A DNA stretch of 64,000 bases from Flavobacteriales bacterium (GTDB lineage: Bacteria > Bacteroidota > Bacteroidia > Flavobacteriales_F > PHOS-HE28), in contig JAHCIA010000001.1 in the NCBI GenBank assembly GCA_026129465.1, positions 2,055,964 through 2,119,963 on the forward strand. The letters are read 5' to 3'. Every line of letters starts with the position of its first letter. Position 1 is the stretch's first letter. A program made the position numbers and the translations under genes. The notes beneath the pieces were generated by a model, which was given only the letters and a program-made list of their open reading frames with translations, searched no databases and was not told the origin of the DNA. Of the stretch, positions 9,915-60,520 are shown piece after piece.

Positions 9915-12911
9915 TTGATCCGCCGCCTTTCTCCTCTCCTCTATCCGTTCGCCTTCACCGCTGCCGCGCAGCAGGCCGAAGTGACGCGCTACGACGTGGC
10001 CGACGGTCTGCCGCAGAGCATGGTGAACCATGTGCTGCAGGACCGCGACGGCTTCATCTGGCTGGGCACCGGCGATGGCCTGGCGCGCTTCGACGGGCAG
10101 CGTTTCGTGGTGTACAAGCATGACCCGCGCGACAGCACCACGCTCTCACACAACAGCATCTGGGGTCTGGCGGAAAAGGACGAGCGCCACCTGTGGGTTG
10201 GTACGCGCAGCGGATTGGACGTGCTGGACCGCCGCACGGGCCGTTCGAGCCGGCATGCCACGGGGCTGACACCTGATGAGGATGGCTGCTGGATGATGTT
10301 GGGCAACACGGGCAGTGTGCAGGTCTGTTACTCGCCGCTCAGTGGCCATCTGTTGTGGATCGGTCCACAGGGACAACGGCTGCGACGCTTGCGGCATCAG
10401 GCCTGTTACGCCATGCACCTCGATGGAACCAGCGGCGCCATCACCCAATTTCTCCTGCCGGACACCCTGCTCACCATCAAGGCCGATGGCCGGGAGCAGG
10501 TGGTGACACTGCCGAAACAGAAACAGGGTCGCACCATGGACCTCGTCCCACTAGGCGATCGCTGGCTGATGCTCTCGGACCAAAGTGCCTGGCTCTGGTC
10601 GCCCACCCGGGGCCGCGAGCCGCTGCCAGCCACCACCCAGGCCTGGATGGACCGTCCATCGGTGAAGAAGCTGGGGGCTATCGCGGGCGATGGCGGGATC
10701 TGGGTGGGCAGTTCCGGACATGGCGTAGCGGTGCTTGACACGGCCTTGCGCATCATCCGATCGTATCCGTTGCTGCCACCCACGGACCGGCCGCTGAACA
10801 TCACCATGGTCACACCCGACCGGCAGGGCAACATCTGGGTGGGCACGGACGGCAAGGGGGTGTTCAAGATAGCGCCGCAACGGATCAAGTTCGGCCGCGC
10901 CATGCCCGGGCAGGGCCTGCCATGGGAGCCTTTCTCCTGGTTCGTGCGTGGCTTCGCTCCCTGGGACGATCACCGCGTGCTGGTGAACTTCTACCAGGGT
11001 GGCTTCGCGCTTTTCGATGAACACACACACACGCTCGAGCCCCTGCATCTTCCAGCCGGTACGCGCCGCGCCATGGTCCACCACGACCTCATCGGTCCAT
11101 GGACCGACCGACATGGGACCATCTGGCTGCGCGATCCCTGGCGGGTGTTCGCCTTGGAGCCGGGCAGTGGCCGATCGCTCCTGGAGCCGGGCGCACTCCC
11201 AGGCAACGCGTTGGCGCGTGGCAGCGACGGCGACATGGTGCTGCTGGACCGCCATGGCCTTCGCGCCATGCGCCATGCGGCATCAGGTATCGAGGCCGAA
11301 GCCCTGCCTTCCATCCGTTTGGTACAATGGATGGACAGCATGGGCACCGTGCCCGATCACATGGCCATCGATGCTCGGGGACGCATCTTCCTGTGCCATG
11401 CCACGGCGCCCATCACCGTGTGGAGCCAGGATGCGCGCATACCGGCCGGACCCTTCCACCGCGATGTGCGCTTCACGATGGTCGCCATCGCAACGGACGG
11501 CGACGTGTGGATGACCGGCAACGACGGCCTCTATCTGTTGGACGGCGCCAGCCTTGCGGTGAAGCGCCACTACACCGTGCATGATGGACTGCCCGACCAA
11601 TACCTCTACGCCATGCTGCCGGCCGGCGATGGCACCTGGTGGATCTCCACGAATCGCGGCCTGTGCCACTTCGATCCGCGCCAGGAGCGCTTCGTCACCC
11701 ATGGCCCGCAGGATGGTCTCCAGAGCATGGAGTTCAACTCGATGGCCTGGCACCGATCGGCCAGCGGGCGCCTCTATTTCGGCGGCATCAACGGCTTCAA
11801 CCACTTCATGCCCGGCGGCATTCGCTTGGATCGGGACACGGCACACGTGGTGATCACCGGAATGGCCGCGCAGGACGAGACGATCGACATCACCACGCTG
11901 GCCGACAGCGAAACCCTGGTGCTGCCCCATGACCGCAACCACCTGCGCATCGACCTGGCCGTTCTGGAATTCACCGCGCCCGCGCGGAACCACTACCGAT
12001 ACCGGATCGAAGGCTACGCGGACTGGAGCACACATCCGGCCAGGCAGCCCATACAACTCACCAACATGCCGGCGGGCGCCTATGTGCTGGAGGTGGCCGG
12101 CATCAACGGCGATGGGCTGGGGTCCGCGCCTCGCGCGCTGCTGCGCATCAACGTACCATTGCCATTCACCGCGTCGCCGGTCTTCTTCGCACTGCTGGGC
12201 ATGCTCACGATCGCGGGCCTCGGCGGGGCGATCTTCCTGGGCTACCGCCAGCGGATCGAACGCCGGATGGAGCGCTCCGCACAGGAGGTGAAGGAATTGC
12301 GCATCCGGGCGCGCATCGCGCAGGACCTGCACGACGACCTCGGCAGTGGTCTGGCCAGGATCACCGCACTGGCCAGGCAGGCGGAGAAACGCGCGGATGC
12401 CGGTGAGGTCCCTTCGGAACCCGTGGGCCGCATGAAGGCCCTCTCGCAGGAACTGATGGACGGCCTGCGCGATGTGGTGTGGGTGAACGATCCGCGCGGC
12501 GGCGAGCTGGCCACACTGCTGATCCGCATCCGCGACCATGCACAGGACCTCTTCGAAGGCACGGAAACGCGCTGCTTGGTGGACTTCCCCATGCCTCCGC
12601 CGGAACGCCCCATCGGCCCTGTGGCGAAACGTGCGCTCTACCTCATCGCCAAGGAGGCGGCCCACAACGCCAGCAAATACAGCGGCGCCGCGGAAGTGGC
12701 CCTGCGGTTCAGGATCGCGGGGGATCGTTTCGAGCTGGTGGTGGAGGATGACGGGCGGGGCAAGGCCGATGCGGTGCAGGGTGGCGGCCATGGTCTGCGC
12801 AACATGCGCGAACGCGCGGCGGAACTGGGCTGCACGTGCGAGGCAGGGCCACGGATCGAGGGCGGATTCCGCCTGCTGCTTGCCGGGCCGGTCGCCGCGC
12901 TCGACCTTTGA
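9915..12911 (+). CDS. Hybrid-propeller sensor histidine kinase (Reg_prop, Y_Y_Y, HisKA_3)
   Basis: This roughly 998-residue membrane sensor has an N-terminal signal or anchor segment, a long periplasmic part of two-component propeller repeats (VLQDRDGFIWLGTGDGLARFDG is the classic first Reg_prop repeat), a Y_Y_Y-like domain near residues 670-735, one transmembrane helix at about 750-775, a dimerisation domain with phospho-acceptor His806 in RIAQDLHDDLGSGL, and a HATPase domain ending with DDGRGKADAVQGGGHGLRNM. It autophosphorylates and passes phosphate to the response regulator that starts four bases after its stop. No ATG fits near the signal peptide; TTG 9915 gives MIRRLSPLLYPFAFTAAAQQ and follows a promoter-like element. 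GTG 9852, overlapping the previous gene, is the alternative. The ligand is unknown. Confidence 0.88.
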   Translation: MIRRLSPLLYPFAFTAAAQQAEVTRYDVADGLPQSMVNHVLQDRDGFIWLGTGDGLARFDGQRFVVYKHDPRDSTTLSHNSIWGLAEKDERHLWVGTRSGLDVLDRRTGRSSRHATGLTPDEDGCWMMLGNTGSVQVCYSPLSGHLLWIGPQGQRLRRLRHQACYAMHLDGTSGAITQFLLPDTLLTIKADGREQVVTLPKQKQGRTMDLVPLGDRWLMLSDQSAWLWSPTRGREPLPATTQAWMDRPSVKKLGAIAGDGGIWVGSSGHGVAVLDTALRIIRSYPLLPPTDRPLNITMVTPDRQGNIWVGTDGKGVFKIAPQRIKFGRAMPGQGLPWEPFSWFVRGFAPWDDHRVLVNFYQGGFALFDEHTHTLEPLHLPAGTRRAMVHHDLIGPWTDRHGTIWLRDPWRVFALEPGSGRSLLEPGALPGNALARGSDGDMVLLDRHGLRAMRHAASGIEAEALPSIRLVQWMDSMGTVPDHMAIDARGRIFLCHATAPITVWSQDARIPAGPFHRDVRFTMVAIATDGDVWMTGNDGLYLLDGASLAVKRHYTVHDGLPDQYLYAMLPAGDGTWWISTNRGLCHFDPRQERFVTHGPQDGLQSMEFNSMAWHRSASGRLYFGGINGFNHFMPGGIRLDRDTAHVVITGMAAQDETIDITTLADSETLVLPHDRNHLRIDLAVLEFTAPARNHYRYRIEGYADWSTHPARQPIQLTNMPAGAYVLEVAGINGDGLGSAPRALLRINVPLPFTASPVFFALLGMLTIAGLGGAIFLGYRQRIERRMERSAQEVKELRIRARIAQDLHDDLGSGLARITALARQAEKRADAGEVPSEPVGRMKALSQELMDGLRDVVWVNDPRGGELATLLIRIRDHAQDLFEGTETRCLVDFPMPPPERPIGPVAKRALYLIAKEAAHNASKYSGAAEVALRFRIAGDRFELVVEDDGRGKADAVQGGGHGLRNMRERAAELGCTCEAGPRIEGGFRLLLAGPVAALDL

Positions 12912-53562: not shown

Positions 53563-53928
53563 CTACCGCAACTTGGGGTTGTCCCGGTGCCGGTGGGCGT
53601 CTCGCTCGGACTTCTCCTTCATCCGCACTTCCCAGGCCGCCTGGAGGTCGGTGCCGGTCTGGTTGGCCAGGCACAGCACCACGAAGAGCACGTCGGCCAG
53701 TTCCTGCCCCAGATCTTTCGCTTTGTCGCTCTCCTTTTCGCTCTGCTCCCCGTAGCGGCGGGCCATGATGCGGGCCACCTCCCCCACCTCCTCGGTCAGC
53801 ATGGCCATGTTGGTGAGGGGGTCGAAGTAGCGCACACCGACACTCCGGACCCATGCGTCCACCTCATGCCGCAATGTGGAAATTGGGCTTGGCTCCTTAG
53901 GCCACCCGGGGCTATCTTGCTCGTCCAT
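53563..53928 (-). CDS. MazG-family nucleotide pyrophosphohydrolase
   Basis: The 121-residue protein is a single MazG-like domain: MLTEEVGEVARIMARRYGEQ provides the EExxE metal-binding part and DLGQELADVLFVVLCLANQTG the ExxD part. These enzymes hydrolyse nucleoside triphosphates to monophosphates and pyrophosphate. The short single-domain length fits the MazG-like proteins of about 110-120 residues in Bacteroidota. The ATG used follows an AACCTTTGC promoter-like element by two bases. It is divergent from the small exported-protein gene. Confidence 0.87.
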   Translation of the reverse strand: MDEQDSPGWPKEPSPISTLRHEVDAWVRSVGVRYFDPLTNMAMLTEEVGEVARIMARRYGEQSEKESDKAKDLGQELADVLFVVLCLANQTGTDLQAAWEVRMKEKSERDAHRHRDNPKLR

Positions 53929-53940
53929 AGGGCAAAGGTT

Positions 53941-54330
53941 ATGCACACCCCCTTGTTGTTGAGGTTGGCCATCATGGTGGGATCCACTTTGCTCCTGGGC
54001 ATGTGGCCTACTGATGCCTTGGCGCAGGAAGCCGCTCCCCGGCACTGGATCCAAGCGGTGGTGGAGGGTTCCATGGACGGCCATGTGGCCCGGCAGGCCG
54101 GGATCGCCCTCCGGGTGCGGAAGGATGTGCTGGAGGCCCGCTTCGACCCCATTTCGAGGAACATGCTGCTGACCGTGCTGGGCAGTAGTGATCTGGACAA
54201 GGCGAAGATCGATGACCTGCTCGCCCCCCTGGACCTGTTCGTGCGCTGCCTGCAGCGCAAGGTCGTGGACGACACGCCGGTCCAACTCCTGGATCCCGGC
54301 ACCTGCCAGGATGCCACGATGAACAAGTGA
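53941..54330 (+). CDS. Small exported protein A (paralogue of the one at 57.2 kb)
   Basis: The 129-residue product has a signal peptide (MHTPLLLRLAIMVGSTLLLGMW, cleavage after ALA) and a domain of about 95 residues with a beta-alpha-beta look (RKDVLEARFDPISRNMLLTVL, then DLDKAKIDDLLAPLDLFVRC). The tail DPGTCQDATMNK is also found, almost unchanged, in the second copy. The fold could resemble the heavy-metal-associated (HMA) ferredoxin-like domain but has no CxxC, so function is unknown. It lies 13 bases upstream of the large anchor-L protein and is probably cotranscribed. Confidence 0.7.
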   Translation: MHTPLLLRLAIMVGSTLLLGMWPTDALAQEAAPRHWIQAVVEGSMDGHVARQAGIALRVRKDVLEARFDPISRNMLLTVLGSSDLDKAKIDDLLAPLDLFVRCLQRKVVDDTPVQLLDPGTCQDATMNK

Positions 54331-54343
54331 GCGCCCTGCGATC

Positions 54344-57097
54344 ATGTCTTCCACCCCTCAACGGAACACGGAGATGGACCAGCCAGCCTGGACCGTGAGG
54401 TGTGCCTACTTCGGCATCTTGGGAATGATCACGCTGCTCCTGCTCGCCGGGCAGGCACAGGCACAGACAGGCCTCTGCTGCCAGGCCGGAGGCAATGGCA
54501 CGCCGGGCTGCAACAACGCCGCTTGCCAGGCCGCCGTGTGCGCACTTGACCCCTTCTGCTGCAATGTCACCTGGGACGGTTTGTGCTCCACAGCCGCGAT
54601 CAACAACGCCAATGGTGGCGGTGCTTGCGCCGGGGTGACGAGTTGCCCTGGCGGCGGCGGCGGTGGCCCGGTGAACAACCTCTGCGGCAACGCCACGGTG
54701 ATCTTCACCGGCACCACGCCTTTCAGCACCATCGGGGCAACAGGTACCGATATCTCCACTTGCGGCGCCAATGATGCCAATGACGTCTGGTACCAGTGGA
54801 CGGCCACCTGCACCGGCACGGCCACAGCCAGCACCTGCAACAATGCCACTTTCGATACGGTGTTGAGTGCCTGGAGCGCGTGTGGTGGCGCCCAACTGGC
54901 GTGCAATGATGATGCGGCAGGCTGCGGCCTCACCAGCACGATCACTTGGGCGGTCACCACCGGGGTCACCTACTGGATCCGCGTATCAGGCTACAACCTG
55001 GCCGTGGGTACAGGTAGTCTCACCATTTCCTGCTCGTCCTCACCACCTCCCGCGAACGCTTGCTGCTCGCCCAACGGCACACCGGGCTGCGACAACGCGG
55101 CCTGCCAAGCGGCCATCTGTGCGCTTGATTTCTTCTGCTGTGCTTTTCTCTGGGATGCCCTGTGTTCCGGTGCTGCCATCACCAACGCCAATGCGGGCGG
55201 TGTTTGCGCCGGCGTGAGCAACTGCCCGGGTACGCCTCCAACACCCAACACCTGCTGCACGGCCAATTCCACCCCCGGTTGCGAGAGCGCCGCCTGCCAG
55301 GTGGCCATCTGCTCGGCGGACCCCTTCTGCTGCAACAATGTCTGGGACGCGATCTGCGCCGCTGCGGCCGTGGCCAACGCCAATGCCAGCGGACCCTGCG
55401 CCGGCGTGAGCAATTGCCCGGGCACGCCAGGAGGTGGTGGCGGGTGCGCACCCGCCGTAGCCGGTGGTGCCCTGCCCGGTTCGGGCTCCATCCTCATTCA
55501 ACAGAACCTCACCCCCACGCAGCTGATCCAGGACGTGTTCCTGGGCGAATGTCTCACCGCCAGCAATGTGCAGTTCACCGGCTCCACCGCCGCCATCGGC
55601 ACCTTCACCAATGGCTGGCGCATCGGCATCAACAGTGGCATCGTGCTCACCACAGGCAATGCGGCACTGGCCGCAGGACCGAATTGGGCCGATGGTACAG
55701 GCCAGGACAATCTCCAACCGGGCTACAATTTGCTCACGGCCCTCGCTGGCATCCAGACCTACGATGCCGCGGTCTTCCAATTCACCTTCGTGCCACAGAC
55801 CAATCAGGTCACATTCAAATACGTGTTCGGCTCGGATGAGTATCCGGAGTATGTCTGCTCCAATTTCAATGACGTTTTCGGCTTCTTCGTCACCGGACCG
55901 GGCTATGCGCCCAACACCAACATCGCCACCATTCCCGGCTCCGCGCTGCCGGTGGCCATCAACACCGTCAACCCAGGGGTTTCCGGCATTTTCGGGTTCC
56001 CCGGGGGATGCGCGTCCCTGGCATATTCCAGCATGTATGTCAACAATCCGCTCTTCAGTCCCCACAACGAGTATGATGGCTTCACCGTGCCGCTGACCGC
56101 CTGCATCAACACGGTGCCCTGCGAGACCTACACCATCATCATCGCCGTGGCCGACGCCTTCGATGGTGTACTGGACTCGGCGGTGTTCCTCGAGGCCGAA
56201 AGCTTCTCCGCCGGGGTGGACCTGCAGATCGACGCCACCGCCGATCAGGTGACGGTGAGTGACGAGGACAATTGCGTGGACTATGGCTATTTCATCTTCA
56301 CCCTTGACCAGCCCTTGGGCCAGGATGTGACCCTCAACTACACCATCGACCAGATCGGTGATGCCGTGTACGATCCTCCCATTCCGTTGCAGGTGACCTT
56401 CCCCGCCGGGCAGACCACGGTGATCATCTCCGTGAACGCCATCCCAGCCTCCCTGGGTCCTGATGTCAGTTCCGTCACCATCAACCTGGACACCTCGCAG
56501 AACCCGCTGCTGGGCTGCAGTTGCACCAGCGAATACGTCTCCACCACGCTCTACTTCTGCGATAACAGCATTCTGCCCGTGACCTGGTTGGGCTTCGAGG
56601 CGAGCAACATCCATGAAGAGCGCGAGGTGCTCTGTGCCTGGAACACCGCCACGGAACTGAACAGCGACCACTTCACCGTGCAGCGCTCTGCGGACATGGT
56701 AAGCTGGATCGATATCGGCACCGTGCCCGGTGCGGGCACCACGGCCATGGCGCAGAGCTACGAGTTCGTGGACCGCGCGCCCTTGAGTGGCGTTTCGTAC
56801 TACCGCATCCGCCAGACCGACCATGACGGCACCAGTGCGCACTCGGAAGTGCGCTCGGTGAGCCGTGGCGCCACCACCCGGCTGGGGGTATACCCCAATC
56901 CAGGCGCGGGCCTGTTCCAACTCAGCGGGCATGAAGGCGGTGTCCTCACGGTATTCGACCCCCGCGGCCGGCGCATCCCCTTCACGCTGGGGCAGGCCGG
57001 GGAACTGGGCCTGCATGGCGTGGCGGCGGGGGTGTATCTGCTGGAGTTGCGCCGTGGCGGCGACCCGCCCGAGCGGTTGCGTTTGGTGGTGCGCTGA
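54344..57097 (+). CDS. Choice-of-anchor L protein with Cys-rich repeats and T9SS sorting domain
   Basis: The 917-residue protein has a signal segment, then Cys-rich repeat 1 (residues 45-102), a pre-peptidase-C-like beta-sandwich (113-230), Cys-rich repeats 2 (240-295) and 3 (304-360), a choice-of-anchor L domain (about 385-640, FGSDEYPEYVCSNFNDVFGFF and NEYDGFTVPLTACI), a linker with CxC, an FN3-like part (NSDHFTVQRSADMVSWIDIG) and a T9SS sorting domain from LGVYPNPGAGLFQL. Each Cys repeat has ten cysteines and the core ACQxAxCxxDxFCC, WDxxC, CAGVSNCPG. It is probably a surface adhesin or structural protein. The start may be ATG 54344 or 54374. Confidence 0.85.
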   Translation: MSSTPQRNTEMDQPAWTVRCAYFGILGMITLLLLAGQAQAQTGLCCQAGGNGTPGCNNAACQAAVCALDPFCCNVTWDGLCSTAAINNANGGGACAGVTSCPGGGGGGPVNNLCGNATVIFTGTTPFSTIGATGTDISTCGANDANDVWYQWTATCTGTATASTCNNATFDTVLSAWSACGGAQLACNDDAAGCGLTSTITWAVTTGVTYWIRVSGYNLAVGTGSLTISCSSSPPPANACCSPNGTPGCDNAACQAAICALDFFCCAFLWDALCSGAAITNANAGGVCAGVSNCPGTPPTPNTCCTANSTPGCESAACQVAICSADPFCCNNVWDAICAAAAVANANASGPCAGVSNCPGTPGGGGGCAPAVAGGALPGSGSILIQQNLTPTQLIQDVFLGECLTASNVQFTGSTAAIGTFTNGWRIGINSGIVLTTGNAALAAGPNWADGTGQDNLQPGYNLLTALAGIQTYDAAVFQFTFVPQTNQVTFKYVFGSDEYPEYVCSNFNDVFGFFVTGPGYAPNTNIATIPGSALPVAINTVNPGVSGIFGFPGGCASLAYSSMYVNNPLFSPHNEYDGFTVPLTACINTVPCETYTIIIAVADAFDGVLDSAVFLEAESFSAGVDLQIDATADQVTVSDEDNCVDYGYFIFTLDQPLGQDVTLNYTIDQIGDAVYDPPIPLQVTFPAGQTTVIISVNAIPASLGPDVSSVTINLDTSQNPLLGCSCTSEYVSTTLYFCDNSILPVTWLGFEASNIHEEREVLCAWNTATELNSDHFTVQRSADMVSWIDIGTVPGAGTTAMAQSYEFVDRAPLSGVSYYRIRQTDHDGTSAHSEVRSVSRGATTRLGVYPNPGAGLFQLSGHEGGVLTVFDPRGRRIPFTLGQAGELGLHGVAAGVYLLELRRGGDPPERLRLVVR

Positions 57098-57190
57098 GGT
57101 GGGCGATAACCGATCGATCCGGCCGGCAGGGTTTGGCGCATAGCGAACTCCGGGCTAAATTGTCCCACGTCCTTCAGCTTCTTTTTCCAC

Positions 57191-57577
57191 ATGGTATTGT
57201 CACTACGCCCCCTGTTGCTCCCCATCGTGTTGCTTGCCGCCTTCTTCCATGTCTCCCAGACGTTGAAGGCGCAGAAGCATACACCCCCCAACCAGATCAA
57301 AGCGGTGGTGGAGGGTTTGCAGGATGCCTTGCAGGCACGCCGGGCCGGTGAAGCGTTGCGCACACGAAAGGATGTCCTGAAGGTGTGGATCGACCCCGGC
57401 AACCGGAACATGTTGCTTCATGTGCTGCCCGAAAGCGATCTGGACAAGTCCGCCATCGATGCTTTGCTAGCGGACCTGGGCTTGACCGTGCGATGCATGC
57501 AACGGCGCGATGAAGTGGACAAGGAACTCCAGTGGCTGGACCCAGGCACCTGCCAGGACGCCACGCCCAACAAATGA
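57191..57577 (+). CDS. Small exported protein B (paralogue of the one at 53.9 kb)
   Basis: The 128-residue product has a signal peptide (MVLSLRPLLLPIVLLAAFFH, cleavage after LKA) and the same domain as small protein A: NQIKAVVEGLQDAL, RTRKDVLKVWIDPGNRNMLL, DLDKSAIDALLADLGLTVRC, and the tail DPGTCQDATPNK. About half of the residues of the mature part agree between the two. It is 35 bases upstream of the second large anchor-L protein. The conserved C-terminus with one Cys may be functionally important. Confidence 0.7.
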   Translation: MVLSLRPLLLPIVLLAAFFHVSQTLKAQKHTPPNQIKAVVEGLQDALQARRAGEALRTRKDVLKVWIDPGNRNMLLHVLPESDLDKSAIDALLADLGLTVRCMQRRDEVDKELQWLDPGTCQDATPNK

Positions 57578-57612
57578 ACCCGCCCTTGCACCGGAACCAT
57601 ACCCCGTGAACG

Positions 57613-60057
57613 ATGAACCGGCTGCTGCTCAAGGCCTTGTGCTGCCTCGCATTGCAGACCAGCACTGATTTGTTGGCCCAATGTGCCAACAACAACACAC
57701 CGATCGCTGGACCCGCCATCACGCCCAATTGCCCCGGCACCACCGTAGTGCCTTGTGTGATGGGCGGGCAATACGCGTTGGTGAACGTGGTGGCCGGAAA
57801 CACATACACCTTCAGTACCTGTGGAGCGCCATTCGACACGCAGATCACCCTTTACGACAATGCTGGAGGGGGTTCGCTGGGCTACAATGATGACAACTGG
57901 GCTTGTGGCATCTTCAGTCTGCAATCGTCCCTGACGTGGAACGCGAACTTTACCGGGCAGCTCCGTGTGCTCGTCGACCTTTACAACTGCGCCAGCAACG
58001 CCGTATGCGCACCGTTGACGATCGTATGCGTCGCACCTTTGACCAACAACACCTGCGCCACCGCCATCATCATCGGCGAGGGAACCACGGGCTTCAGTTC
58101 AGTGGGAGCCACTGGCACAGACGTTACGAACTGCGGCTTCTTGGACAACAATGACGTCTGGTTCCAGTACGTCGCCACCTGCTCTGGTATCGCCACGGCG
58201 ACCACCTGCGGAAGCGCCAACTTCGATACGGTGCTGAGCGCTTGGAGCACCTGCCCTGGTGCGGGTGGCGCCGAAGTGTCCTGCAACGATGATGCGCCGG
58301 GTTGTGGCCTCACCAGCACCATCACCTTCCCCGTGACGGAAGGGAACTCCTACTGGATCCGAGTATCGGGTTATTGGAACGCGACGGGGACAGGCAACCT
58401 GACGATCAGTTGCCAATCCTTGAACACAGGATGTGCGCCGGGGGTGGCCGGTGGTCAACTGCCCGGCTCGGGTTCGATCCAGATCCAGCAGAACCTCACC
58501 CCCACGCAGCTGGTGCAGGATGTTTTCCTGGGTGAATGTCTCACCGCCAGCAATGTGGCGTTCACGGGCACCACGGCGGCGGTGGGTACCTTCACCAACG
58601 GCTGGCGCATCGGCATCGAGTCCGGCATCGTGCTTACCACGGGCAATGCCAACTCGGCTGTGGGGCCCAACTCATTGACCAGCACCACCACCGCAAATGG
58701 GCAGCCTGACTATCCCTTGCTGACCACCTTGGCGGGCGCCCCAACCTATGATGCCACCGTGCTTCGGTTCGATTTCGTACCCCAGACCAATTCCGTGACC
58801 TTCAAGTACGCGTTCGCCTCGGAGGAGTATCCAGAATGGGTCTGCGCCACCTACAATGACGTCTTCGGCTTCTTCGTCTCAGGTCCGGGCTATGCGCCCA
58901 ATACCAACATCGCCACGGTGCCGGGCACGTTCTATCCGGTGGCCATCGACCATGTGAACAACAACGGCGGCTGCGCGCCCTTCTTCCCGGCCTACTACCA
59001 GGCCAATCCCGCCAATGCGCCGCACAACGAGTATGATGGCTTCACCGTGCCGCTGACCGCCTGCATCAATACGGTGCCCTGCGAGACCTACACCATCATC
59101 ATCGCCGTGGCCGATGCTGGGGACGCATTGTTCGATTCCGCGGTGTTCCTCGAAGCCGAAAGCTTCTCCGCCGGGGTGGACCTGCAGATCGACGCCACCG
59201 CCGACCAGGTGACCGTGAGCGATGAGGACAACTGTGTGGACTACGGCTACTTCATCTTCTCCATCGACCAGCCCTTGGGCCAGGACGTGACCCTCACCTA
59301 CACCATCACCCAGATCGGCAGCGCGGTATACGACCCGCCCATTCCGCTCCAAGTGACCTTCCCCGCCGGGCAGACCACGGTGATCATCTCCGTGAACGCC
59401 ATCCCGGCCTCGCTGGGTCCTGACGTGAGCTCCGTCACCATCGACCTGGACACTTCGCAGAACCCCTTGCTCGGCTGCAGTTGCACCAGCGAATTCGTGA
59501 GCACCACGCTCTACTTCTGCGACAACAGCATCCTGCCGGTGACCTGGCTGGGTTTCGACGCGCGTAACATCAACGAAGAGCGTGAGGTGCTCTGTGCCTG
59601 GAACACCGCCACGGAACTGAACAGCGACCACTTCACCGTGCAGCGCTCTGCGGACATGGTGCACTGGATCGATATCGGCACCGTGCCCGGCGCTGGCACC
59701 ACGGCCATGGCGCAGACCTACGAGTTCGTGGACCGCGCGCCCCTGAGTGGCATTTCCTACTACCGGATCCGGCAGACCGACCACGATGGCACCAGTGGTC
59801 ATTCGGAAGTGCGCTCGGTGAGCCGGGGCGGTCCAACGCGATTCGCGGTGTATCCCAACCCGGGCGCGGACCTGTTCCAACTCAGCGGACATGAAGGCGG
59901 CGTCCTCAAGGTGTTCGATCCCAGTGGCCGGCGCGTCCCCTTCACGCTGGGCCAGGCCGGGGAACTGGGCCTGCATGGTGTGGCCGCGGGTGTCTACCTG
60001 CTGGAGTTGCGGCGCGGCCAAGCGGAACCCGAACGGCTGCGCCTGGTGGTGCGCTGA
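57613..60057 (+). CDS. Choice-of-anchor L protein without Cys-rich repeats, T9SS sorting domain
   Basis: The 814-residue paralogue of the 54.3 kb protein has a signal peptide (MNRLLLKALCCLALQTSTDL), two pre-peptidase-C-like domains (about 40-135 and 140-272, DVWFQYVATCSGIATATTCG), a choice-of-anchor L domain (about 275-535, FASEEYPEWVCATYNDVFGFF), and a C-terminal half nearly identical to that of the first copy (SAGVDLQIDATADQVTVSD, then FCDNSILPVTWLGF and the sorting domain FAVYPNPGADLFQLSG). The three ten-cysteine repeats of the first copy are missing and replaced by a second beta-sandwich. The close 3' identity points to recent duplication or gene conversion. Confidence 0.85.
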   Translation: MNRLLLKALCCLALQTSTDLLAQCANNNTPIAGPAITPNCPGTTVVPCVMGGQYALVNVVAGNTYTFSTCGAPFDTQITLYDNAGGGSLGYNDDNWACGIFSLQSSLTWNANFTGQLRVLVDLYNCASNAVCAPLTIVCVAPLTNNTCATAIIIGEGTTGFSSVGATGTDVTNCGFLDNNDVWFQYVATCSGIATATTCGSANFDTVLSAWSTCPGAGGAEVSCNDDAPGCGLTSTITFPVTEGNSYWIRVSGYWNATGTGNLTISCQSLNTGCAPGVAGGQLPGSGSIQIQQNLTPTQLVQDVFLGECLTASNVAFTGTTAAVGTFTNGWRIGIESGIVLTTGNANSAVGPNSLTSTTTANGQPDYPLLTTLAGAPTYDATVLRFDFVPQTNSVTFKYAFASEEYPEWVCATYNDVFGFFVSGPGYAPNTNIATVPGTFYPVAIDHVNNNGGCAPFFPAYYQANPANAPHNEYDGFTVPLTACINTVPCETYTIIIAVADAGDALFDSAVFLEAESFSAGVDLQIDATADQVTVSDEDNCVDYGYFIFSIDQPLGQDVTLTYTITQIGSAVYDPPIPLQVTFPAGQTTVIISVNAIPASLGPDVSSVTIDLDTSQNPLLGCSCTSEFVSTTLYFCDNSILPVTWLGFDARNINEEREVLCAWNTATELNSDHFTVQRSADMVHWIDIGTVPGAGTTAMAQTYEFVDRAPLSGISYYRIRQTDHDGTSGHSEVRSVSRGGPTRFAVYPNPGADLFQLSGHEGGVLKVFDPSGRRVPFTLGQAGELGLHGVAAGVYLLELRRGQAEPERLRLVVR

Positions 60058-60067
60058 TGTGCGCACA

Positions 60068-60520
60068 TCACAGGTCCTGCCGACTGTCGATCACGATCGT
60101 CACCGGGCCATCGTTCACCAGCGAGACATGCATGTGCGCGCCGAACTCACCGGTGCGTACCGGGCGGCCAGCCAATTCGGTGAGTCGTTGCTTGGCGCGC
60201 AGGTACAGGGGTATCGCCTCATCGGGCCGGGCGGCGCGGATGTAGCTGGGCCGGTTGCCCTTGCGCGTGTCGGCATGCAGCGTGAACTGGCTCACCAGGA
60301 GGATCTCGCCCTGCATCTGCGTGATGTCGAGGTTCATCACACCGTCGGCATCGGGGAAGATTCGCATGCGCACCAGCTTGCCACAGAGCCATTCAAGGTC
60401 CTGCTCGGTATCCCCGGTCTCGATGCCGAGCAGCACGAGAATTCCTGGACCGATGCGCGCGTGTTCCGATCCACCGATGTGCACGGCGGCCTCGCCCACC
60501 CGTTGCAGCACCGCCCGCAT
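60068..60520 (-). CDS. dtd: D-aminoacyl-tRNA deacylase
   Basis: The 150-residue enzyme removes D-amino acids, and achiral glycine, from mischarged tRNA. It shows MRAVLQRVGEAAVHIGG, the active-site SQFTLHADTRKGNRPSY and the Gly-cisPro-like loop NDGPVTIVID. Length is exactly that of bacterial DTD. It starts one base after the acid phosphatase stop on the same strand. Confidence 0.95.
   Translation of the reverse strand: MRAVLQRVGEAAVHIGGSEHARIGPGILVLLGIETGDTEQDLEWLCGKLVRMRIFPDADGVMNLDITQMQGEILLVSQFTLHADTRKGNRPSYIRAARPDEAIPLYLRAKQRLTELAGRPVRTGEFGAHMHVSLVNDGPVTIVIDSRQDL

Follow-up and report, generated by a model that had tools for sequence, protein, structure and literature searches.

Exported proteins with a predicted HMA fold precede type IX secretion cargoes in a Flavobacteriales genus and may act as cargo-dedicated partners

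Introduction

Type A cargoes of the type IX secretion system (T9SS) are thought to share PorV, and we know of no report of a cognate small partner for such cargoes. A PorP/SprF-like shuttle is a beta-barrel protein of the outer membrane. Type B cargoes and PorP/SprF shuttles are encoded as cognate pairs of neighbouring genes (PMC12618676). SkpA is a small periplasmic chaperone homologue that is needed for T9SS transport and is assigned to an extended translocon (PMC10994853). The literature surveyed, with subscription journals mostly outside its scope, yielded no paper joining type IX secretion with the heavy-metal-associated (HMA) domain or with a dedicated cargo chaperone; a search for 'choice-of-anchor L' by name, in which coverage of subscription journals was thin, also found no paper.

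The locus described here lies in a window of 64,000 nucleotides of a Flavobacteriales genome (GenBank assembly GCA_026129465.1), the window being the whole stretch of DNA that was analysed. Two gene pairs stand in tandem, each consisting of a gene for a small exported protein (S) followed by a gene for a large T9SS cargo (B) with a choice-of-anchor L domain. An earlier note on this DNA proposed that the small protein works together with its anchor-L neighbour, for example as a secreted partner, chaperone or processing factor. The analysis below compares the module with related genomes of the genus and with other loci that carry similar pairs.

Results

All four open reading frames of the module are open and lie on the + strand in the order small, large, small, large, as the earlier note had described. 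The pairs are inserted between two flanking genes, which we take from sequence resemblance to be mazG and dtd (a phosphatase is named on the same assumption). Signal peptides were assigned by eye or by a simple rule. The features of the module are as follows.

53563..53925, - strand: left flank of the insertion site, MazG-like pyrophosphohydrolase (conserved sequence and order)
53941..54330, + strand: S1, small exported protein, 129 aa (open reading frame; HMA-like fold by homology to S2)
54025, + strand: predicted mature start of S1, Q29 (signal peptide by eye and Q after AxA, the Q-rule)
54344..57097, + strand: B1, T9SS cargo with choice-of-anchor L, 917 aa, starting 13 nt after S1
54493..54651, + strand: B1 ten-cysteine repeat 1
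54674..55021, + strand: B1 galactose-binding-like domain PF23759 (E 6e-7)
55072..55230, + strand: B1 ten-cysteine repeat 2
55264..55422, + strand: B1 ten-cysteine repeat 3
55523..56206, + strand: B1 choice-of-anchor L domain (NF038133, E 3.1e-70, 236 bits)
56888..57064, + strand: B1 T9SS type A sorting domain (TIGR04183, E 1.9e-4, 21.3 bits; cut-off 23)
57191..57577, + strand: S2, small exported protein, 128 aa (predicted beta-alpha-beta-beta-alpha-beta HMA fold without CxxC, pLDDT 86)
57272, + strand: predicted mature start of S2, Q28
57613..60057, + strand: B2, T9SS cargo with choice-of-anchor L, 814 aa, starting 35 nt after S2
58042..58398, + strand: B2 galactose-binding-like domain (E 9e-4, below the Pfam cut-off), preceded by an extra N-terminal sandwich
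58510..59166, + strand: B2 choice-of-anchor L domain (NF038133, E 1.6e-70, 237 bits)
59848..60048, + strand: B2 T9SS type A sorting domain (TIGR04183, E 8.9e-6, 25.6 bits; cut-off 23)
60068..60520, - strand: right flank, D-aminoacyl-tRNA deacylase-like gene dtd (conserved order)

S1 and S2, at 57-60% identity, have in common the motifs RKDVL and NMLL, the LDK..ID.LLA region and the tail DPGTCQDAT.NK, and the two large proteins share their anchor-L and sorting regions, again in agreement with the earlier description. NF038133 is matched by both cargoes at about 236 bits against a cut-off of 27, and the TIGR04183 tail scores above its cut-off in B2 and just under it in B1. The N-termini of both carry, by eye, a hydrophobic stretch ending in AQ. 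Upstream of the anchor-L domain, the three ten-cysteine repeats reported for B1 are present and have no Pfam or NCBIfam match; the sandwich of B2 (PPC-like, at a weak E of 0.035) is not, however, a mere replacement for them as had been supposed, PF23759 being found in both cargoes.

The duplication cannot be put down to chance or to an assembly error, the latter being a possible refutation that the earlier note had named, because the copies are too divergent: S1 and S2 differ by 40% at the protein level, and the fraction of four-fold sites differing between copies is 0.42-0.50 in S and in the N-terminal part of B. Both pairs lie on one contig of 3.86 Mb, and a relative (G040) apparently also has two such pairs in tandem, spread over two contigs. 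The C-terminal parts of B1 and B2 (55523-57097 versus 58510-60057) are much closer, with 0.15-0.26 of four-fold sites differing, and look as if they had been homogenised by gene conversion. B might be an orthologue of the cargo in the same slot with one module swapped, and the N-terminus of B2 does match a slot cargo (L033) at 43%. The N-terminal domains of B2 recur in many T9SS proteins of the genus, however, so that a replaced gene would look just like a swapped domain, and this reading was not adopted.

The mature S protein is about 100 residues long and alpha/beta in class, and is encoded upstream of its cargo. In the AlphaFold model of S2 (pLDDT 86) the order of elements is beta-alpha-beta-beta-alpha-beta, and the best PDB matches of this model are HMA domains (Foldseek E 1e-4; VIA Z 10.5 over 80 residues). 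The resemblance extends to sequence, since the S profile matches a profile built on seven HMA domains, of which six belong to this genome and one to a relative (G025), with an E of 2e-7. HMA family PF00403 is matched by one of the 19 S members, at an E of 0.16 and below the curated Pfam cut-off, and neither S nor the remote small proteins described below match any Pfam or NCBIfam family above its cut-off. The CxxC metal site is absent from all 19 aligned S proteins, in which the columns of the corresponding loop hold other residues, and all 19 carry two cysteines placed 19-20 residues apart in the last strand and the tail. Together these features point to a family that probably descends from HMA metallochaperones and has lost the metal site. 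No protease or sortase feature was found in S, which with the HMA-like fold speaks against the processing role suggested in the earlier note. S is under purifying selection, with dN/dS from 0 to 0.39 over the eight pairs that have synonymous changes. A glutamine directly follows the predicted signal peptide of S, as is expected for exported Bacteroidota proteins (PMC5837995).

Of 45 genomes of the genus, 18 contain S by a profile search, with matches at an E of 1.4e-38 or better; this count leaves out a weak match in G006 (E 0.007), which has no signal peptide and is not S. A limited first-pass search of 394 other Bacteroidota genomes, which may miss remote members, gave no orthologue. Run in the same way on all 395 genomes, this one included, a broad S-like profile matched this genome and gave six matches outside the genus, and all four of those that were read carry CxxC and are ordinary HMA proteins. 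A pattern scan of viral contigs gave no match.

Among the S genes of 18 relatives, 17 have readable downstream DNA (L049 lies at a contig edge and is left out of the counts), and all 17 are directly followed by a gene for a large secreted protein. The two genes overlap by the four nucleotides ATGA in 15 of the 17 and meet as TGATG in one, and in one they are separated by a gap of 3 nt; the window pairs have no such overlap and keep gaps of 13 and 35 nt. Every relative's cargo that is complete at its C-terminal end (15/15) has a tail that can be aligned to that of the window cargo. The order mazG, S, B, dtd is complete on one contig in 12 of the 18 genomes with S; in the others it is cut by contig ends, except in G011, whose pair, to judge by its contigs, lies elsewhere. 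S is missing from 27 genomes: in 21 of them no more than 153 nt separate mazG from dtd, two are rearranged and four have no mazG match. Because of this short spacing, neither S nor B can be present in any of the 21 intact sites that lack S, and no genome with an intact mazG-dtd site has one gene of the pair without the other. On a tree of the flanking proteins, seven gains or losses of the pair are needed, at least five of them forced by well-supported branches. S and B are thus gained and lost together. In G022, a decayed remnant of mazG lies beside the pair (L047, around 10633-10740), and an intact mazG is found on another contig.

The kind of cargo that follows S is not constant. The anchor-L profile matches both window cargoes and none of the 17 S-linked cargoes of relatives, of which 16 carry instead a module of 180 aa named 'DCPQAVN' and the 17th is cut short; conversely, S is missing beside six of the eight anchor-L genes found here. 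The association of S with choice-of-anchor L is therefore a local accident, unlike its pairing with a T9SS cargo, and the proposal that the anchor-L protein is its partner is not supported. Since the relatives' cargoes lack anchor-L, homologues of S lie away from anchor-L proteins, a finding that the earlier note had named as fatal to its proposal, but they lie beside a large secreted protein in 17 of 17 cases, and the expectation of a constant neighbour survives for T9SS cargoes generally. Tandem pairs without S are formed by further anchor-L genes of this genome (L146, 6807-13231; L149, 5487-8588). The strong form of the cargo module gives 16 matches of at least 312 bits, all at S loci, and weaker paralogues at eight loci (L168-L175, 198-222 bits) have no S. 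Upstream of four of these eight stands an unrelated small His-rich protein that ends in FHPP[KQ] and has no Pfam or NCBIfam match. The weaker paralogue of this genome (G000:C1:1609860-1610393) lies about 2 kb from a cluster with HMA and P-type ATPase genes. Profile comparison found no relation between the cargo module and anchor-L, and sequence searches of solved structures with the module and with B2 gave nothing useful; a structure prediction of the module, at pLDDT 47, was set aside.

Similar pairs occur at other loci. Weak matches of the S profile in G022 and G009 proved to be exported HMA-like proteins without CxxC, and the gene of each overlaps by ATGA with that of a T9SS-type cargo (533 and 889 residues, respectively). 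Including these two, a broad profile combined with a search by cargo N-termini, in which pairs were called by a simple signal-peptide rule, identified 28 remote small/large pairs at 20 loci after the removal of one spurious plus-strand pair in L246. The genes overlap in frame by four nucleotides in 13 of the 28 pairs and lie at most 20 nt apart in eight more, giving 21 of 28 together. One such pair, the third in this genome, has its small gene at 3457517-3457831 and a cargo of 654 residues. Several remote pairs form tandem arrays of two or three with one S per cargo; such arrays are common in the genus, as three pairs stand in a row at each of L211 (G010), L246 (G041) and L230 (G034). When cargoes were picked by their N-terminal domains alone, 16 of 25 had a small gene in front, and two of the nine that had none by the rule have an S-like match in front in another search. 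Control regions that had not been picked for remote pairs contained 26 large secreted open reading frames with a T9SS-like tail; six of these are the known S pairs, and under a like rule none of the other 20, which are not at S loci, has a small gene in front.

Among seven remote cargoes compared with TIGR04183, two score above the cut-off, three score just below it and two have no match. The profile of the remote small proteins matches S with an E of 3e-5 (prob. 73) and HMA weakly (E 0.0017, prob. 15). In many of these proteins (L231, L243, L245, L215 and others) the HMA-like part is followed by the C-terminal motif TGDPxxDxxxYxxxKxxWxxxHPxxY, a tail that is not in Pfam or NCBIfam.

Pairwise distances between S proteins track those between the cargo modules when the flanking genes are taken into account (partial rho 0.54-0.60, 0 of 1000 permutations), and they show no co-variation with the T9SS tail (partial -0.00). 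These tests were run without L039, which is the same as L038, and those on the tail without L035 and L046. The signal is weak when each of the two S subgroups is taken separately (60 and 61 of 1000 permutations), and shared ancestry may therefore account for part of it; with rows that are not independent, the correlation is a hint, not proof, of contact between S and its cargo.

Discussion

The pairing of S with a large secreted neighbour has been kept through duplication, through five to seven gains or losses and at unrelated loci, and a working partnership between the two, as the earlier note had proposed in general terms, is for this reason a good inference. The reading that we favour, at a probability of about 0.5, is that S is an exported family derived from HMA proteins, each member being translated together with one T9SS type A cargo, that of the gene immediately downstream, and serving that cargo alone. 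The members would be periplasmic partners of individual cargoes and make up a family at the level of the genus, their most likely roles being those of folding or holding factors or of subunits.

Under the favoured reading, S and B would be made from one message with S first, and ribosomes would re-initiate at the ATGA overlap in many pairs. Both proteins would enter the periplasm by Sec, S keeping its N-terminal glutamine. There S may bind the cargo with which it is paired, most probably at the beta-rich module that precedes the sorting tail and not at the tail itself, and would hold the cysteine-rich beta cargo or help it to fold until the T9SS moves the cargo across the outer membrane. Alternatively, S could stay with the cargo as a light subunit.

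In the stronger form of this last alternative, S would leave the cell bound to its cargo and pass through the T9SS without bearing a sorting tail. A C-terminal sorting domain is missing from S, which nevertheless stands one-to-one with an exported cargo; tandem arrays keep one S for each cargo; and overlapping gene pairs, in a study of them, reportedly often code for components of a single complex. The literature surveyed gave no case, however, in which the T9SS exports a tail-less partner along with its cargo, and we hold this version to be possible but rather doubtful. It is unlikely, in our judgement, that S and B merely travel as one inserted unit with a shared promoter and never touch, S having some other role in the envelope such as metal or redox homeostasis. 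Much of the joint presence and absence does come from one genomic site, where a single cassette could have been gained and lost whole; the fold of S is that of a metal carrier, and the paralogue of the cargo module in this genome is close to the HMA/P-type ATPase cluster. Such a cassette would nevertheless have to account for the same arrangement at unrelated loci with different types of cargo and for an ATGA overlap kept in most pairs, and a metal-related role for S is at odds with the disappearance of CxxC. That S serves choice-of-anchor L proteins specifically would fit the two window pairs, both of which have an anchor-L cargo, but is contradicted both by the relatives' cargoes and by the anchor-L genes of this genome that stand without S; it is highly improbable and was rejected on the relatives' cargoes.

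If the favoured reading is true, many type A cargoes would have a small exported partner of their own, which would add a layer to T9SS secretion, a metal-carrier fold would have acquired a new function, and a label would become available for many small proteins of these uncultured Flavobacteriales that are now called 'hypothetical'. A bolder proposal, which we put forward as speculation and think improbable as a whole, is that the genus turned a metallochaperone into many cargo-specific adaptors, metal-free light chains with an HMA fold, each produced, folded and perhaps exported along with its own type A surface protein, that arrays of such pairs diversify as units, and that the T9SS carries complexes of two chains, only one of which bears a sorting signal.

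Comparison with known systems

The choice-of-anchor L proteins (NF038133) share their domain with B1 and B2, but the majority of such genes in this genome stand without S, and S is mostly found without an anchor-L neighbour. HMA proteins (PF00403), among them CopZ, Atx1 and MerP, resemble S in predicted fold, in the length of the core and in a sequence that can be aligned. S differs from them in that it lacks CxxC, is exported, has a C-terminal extension with a conserved cysteine and is paired with cargo genes; in the remote members, the TGDPxxDxxxYxxxKxxWxxxHPxxY tail takes the place of the cysteine extension.

Like PorP/SprF and their cargoes, S and B are a dedicated partner and a T9SS cargo encoded by neighbouring genes as cognate pairs. 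In the PorP/SprF system the partner belongs to the outer membrane and its gene follows that of a type B cargo, whereas S is a small soluble protein with a predicted HMA fold encoded upstream of a type A cargo; at about 100 mature residues, alpha/beta in class and placed before its cargo, S is not a PorP/SprF-like shuttle. SkpA is comparable to S as a small periplasmic protein linked to the T9SS, and is a general, trimeric component of the machine (PMC10994853). The S-like proteins, in contrast, are many and diverse, with one for each cargo.
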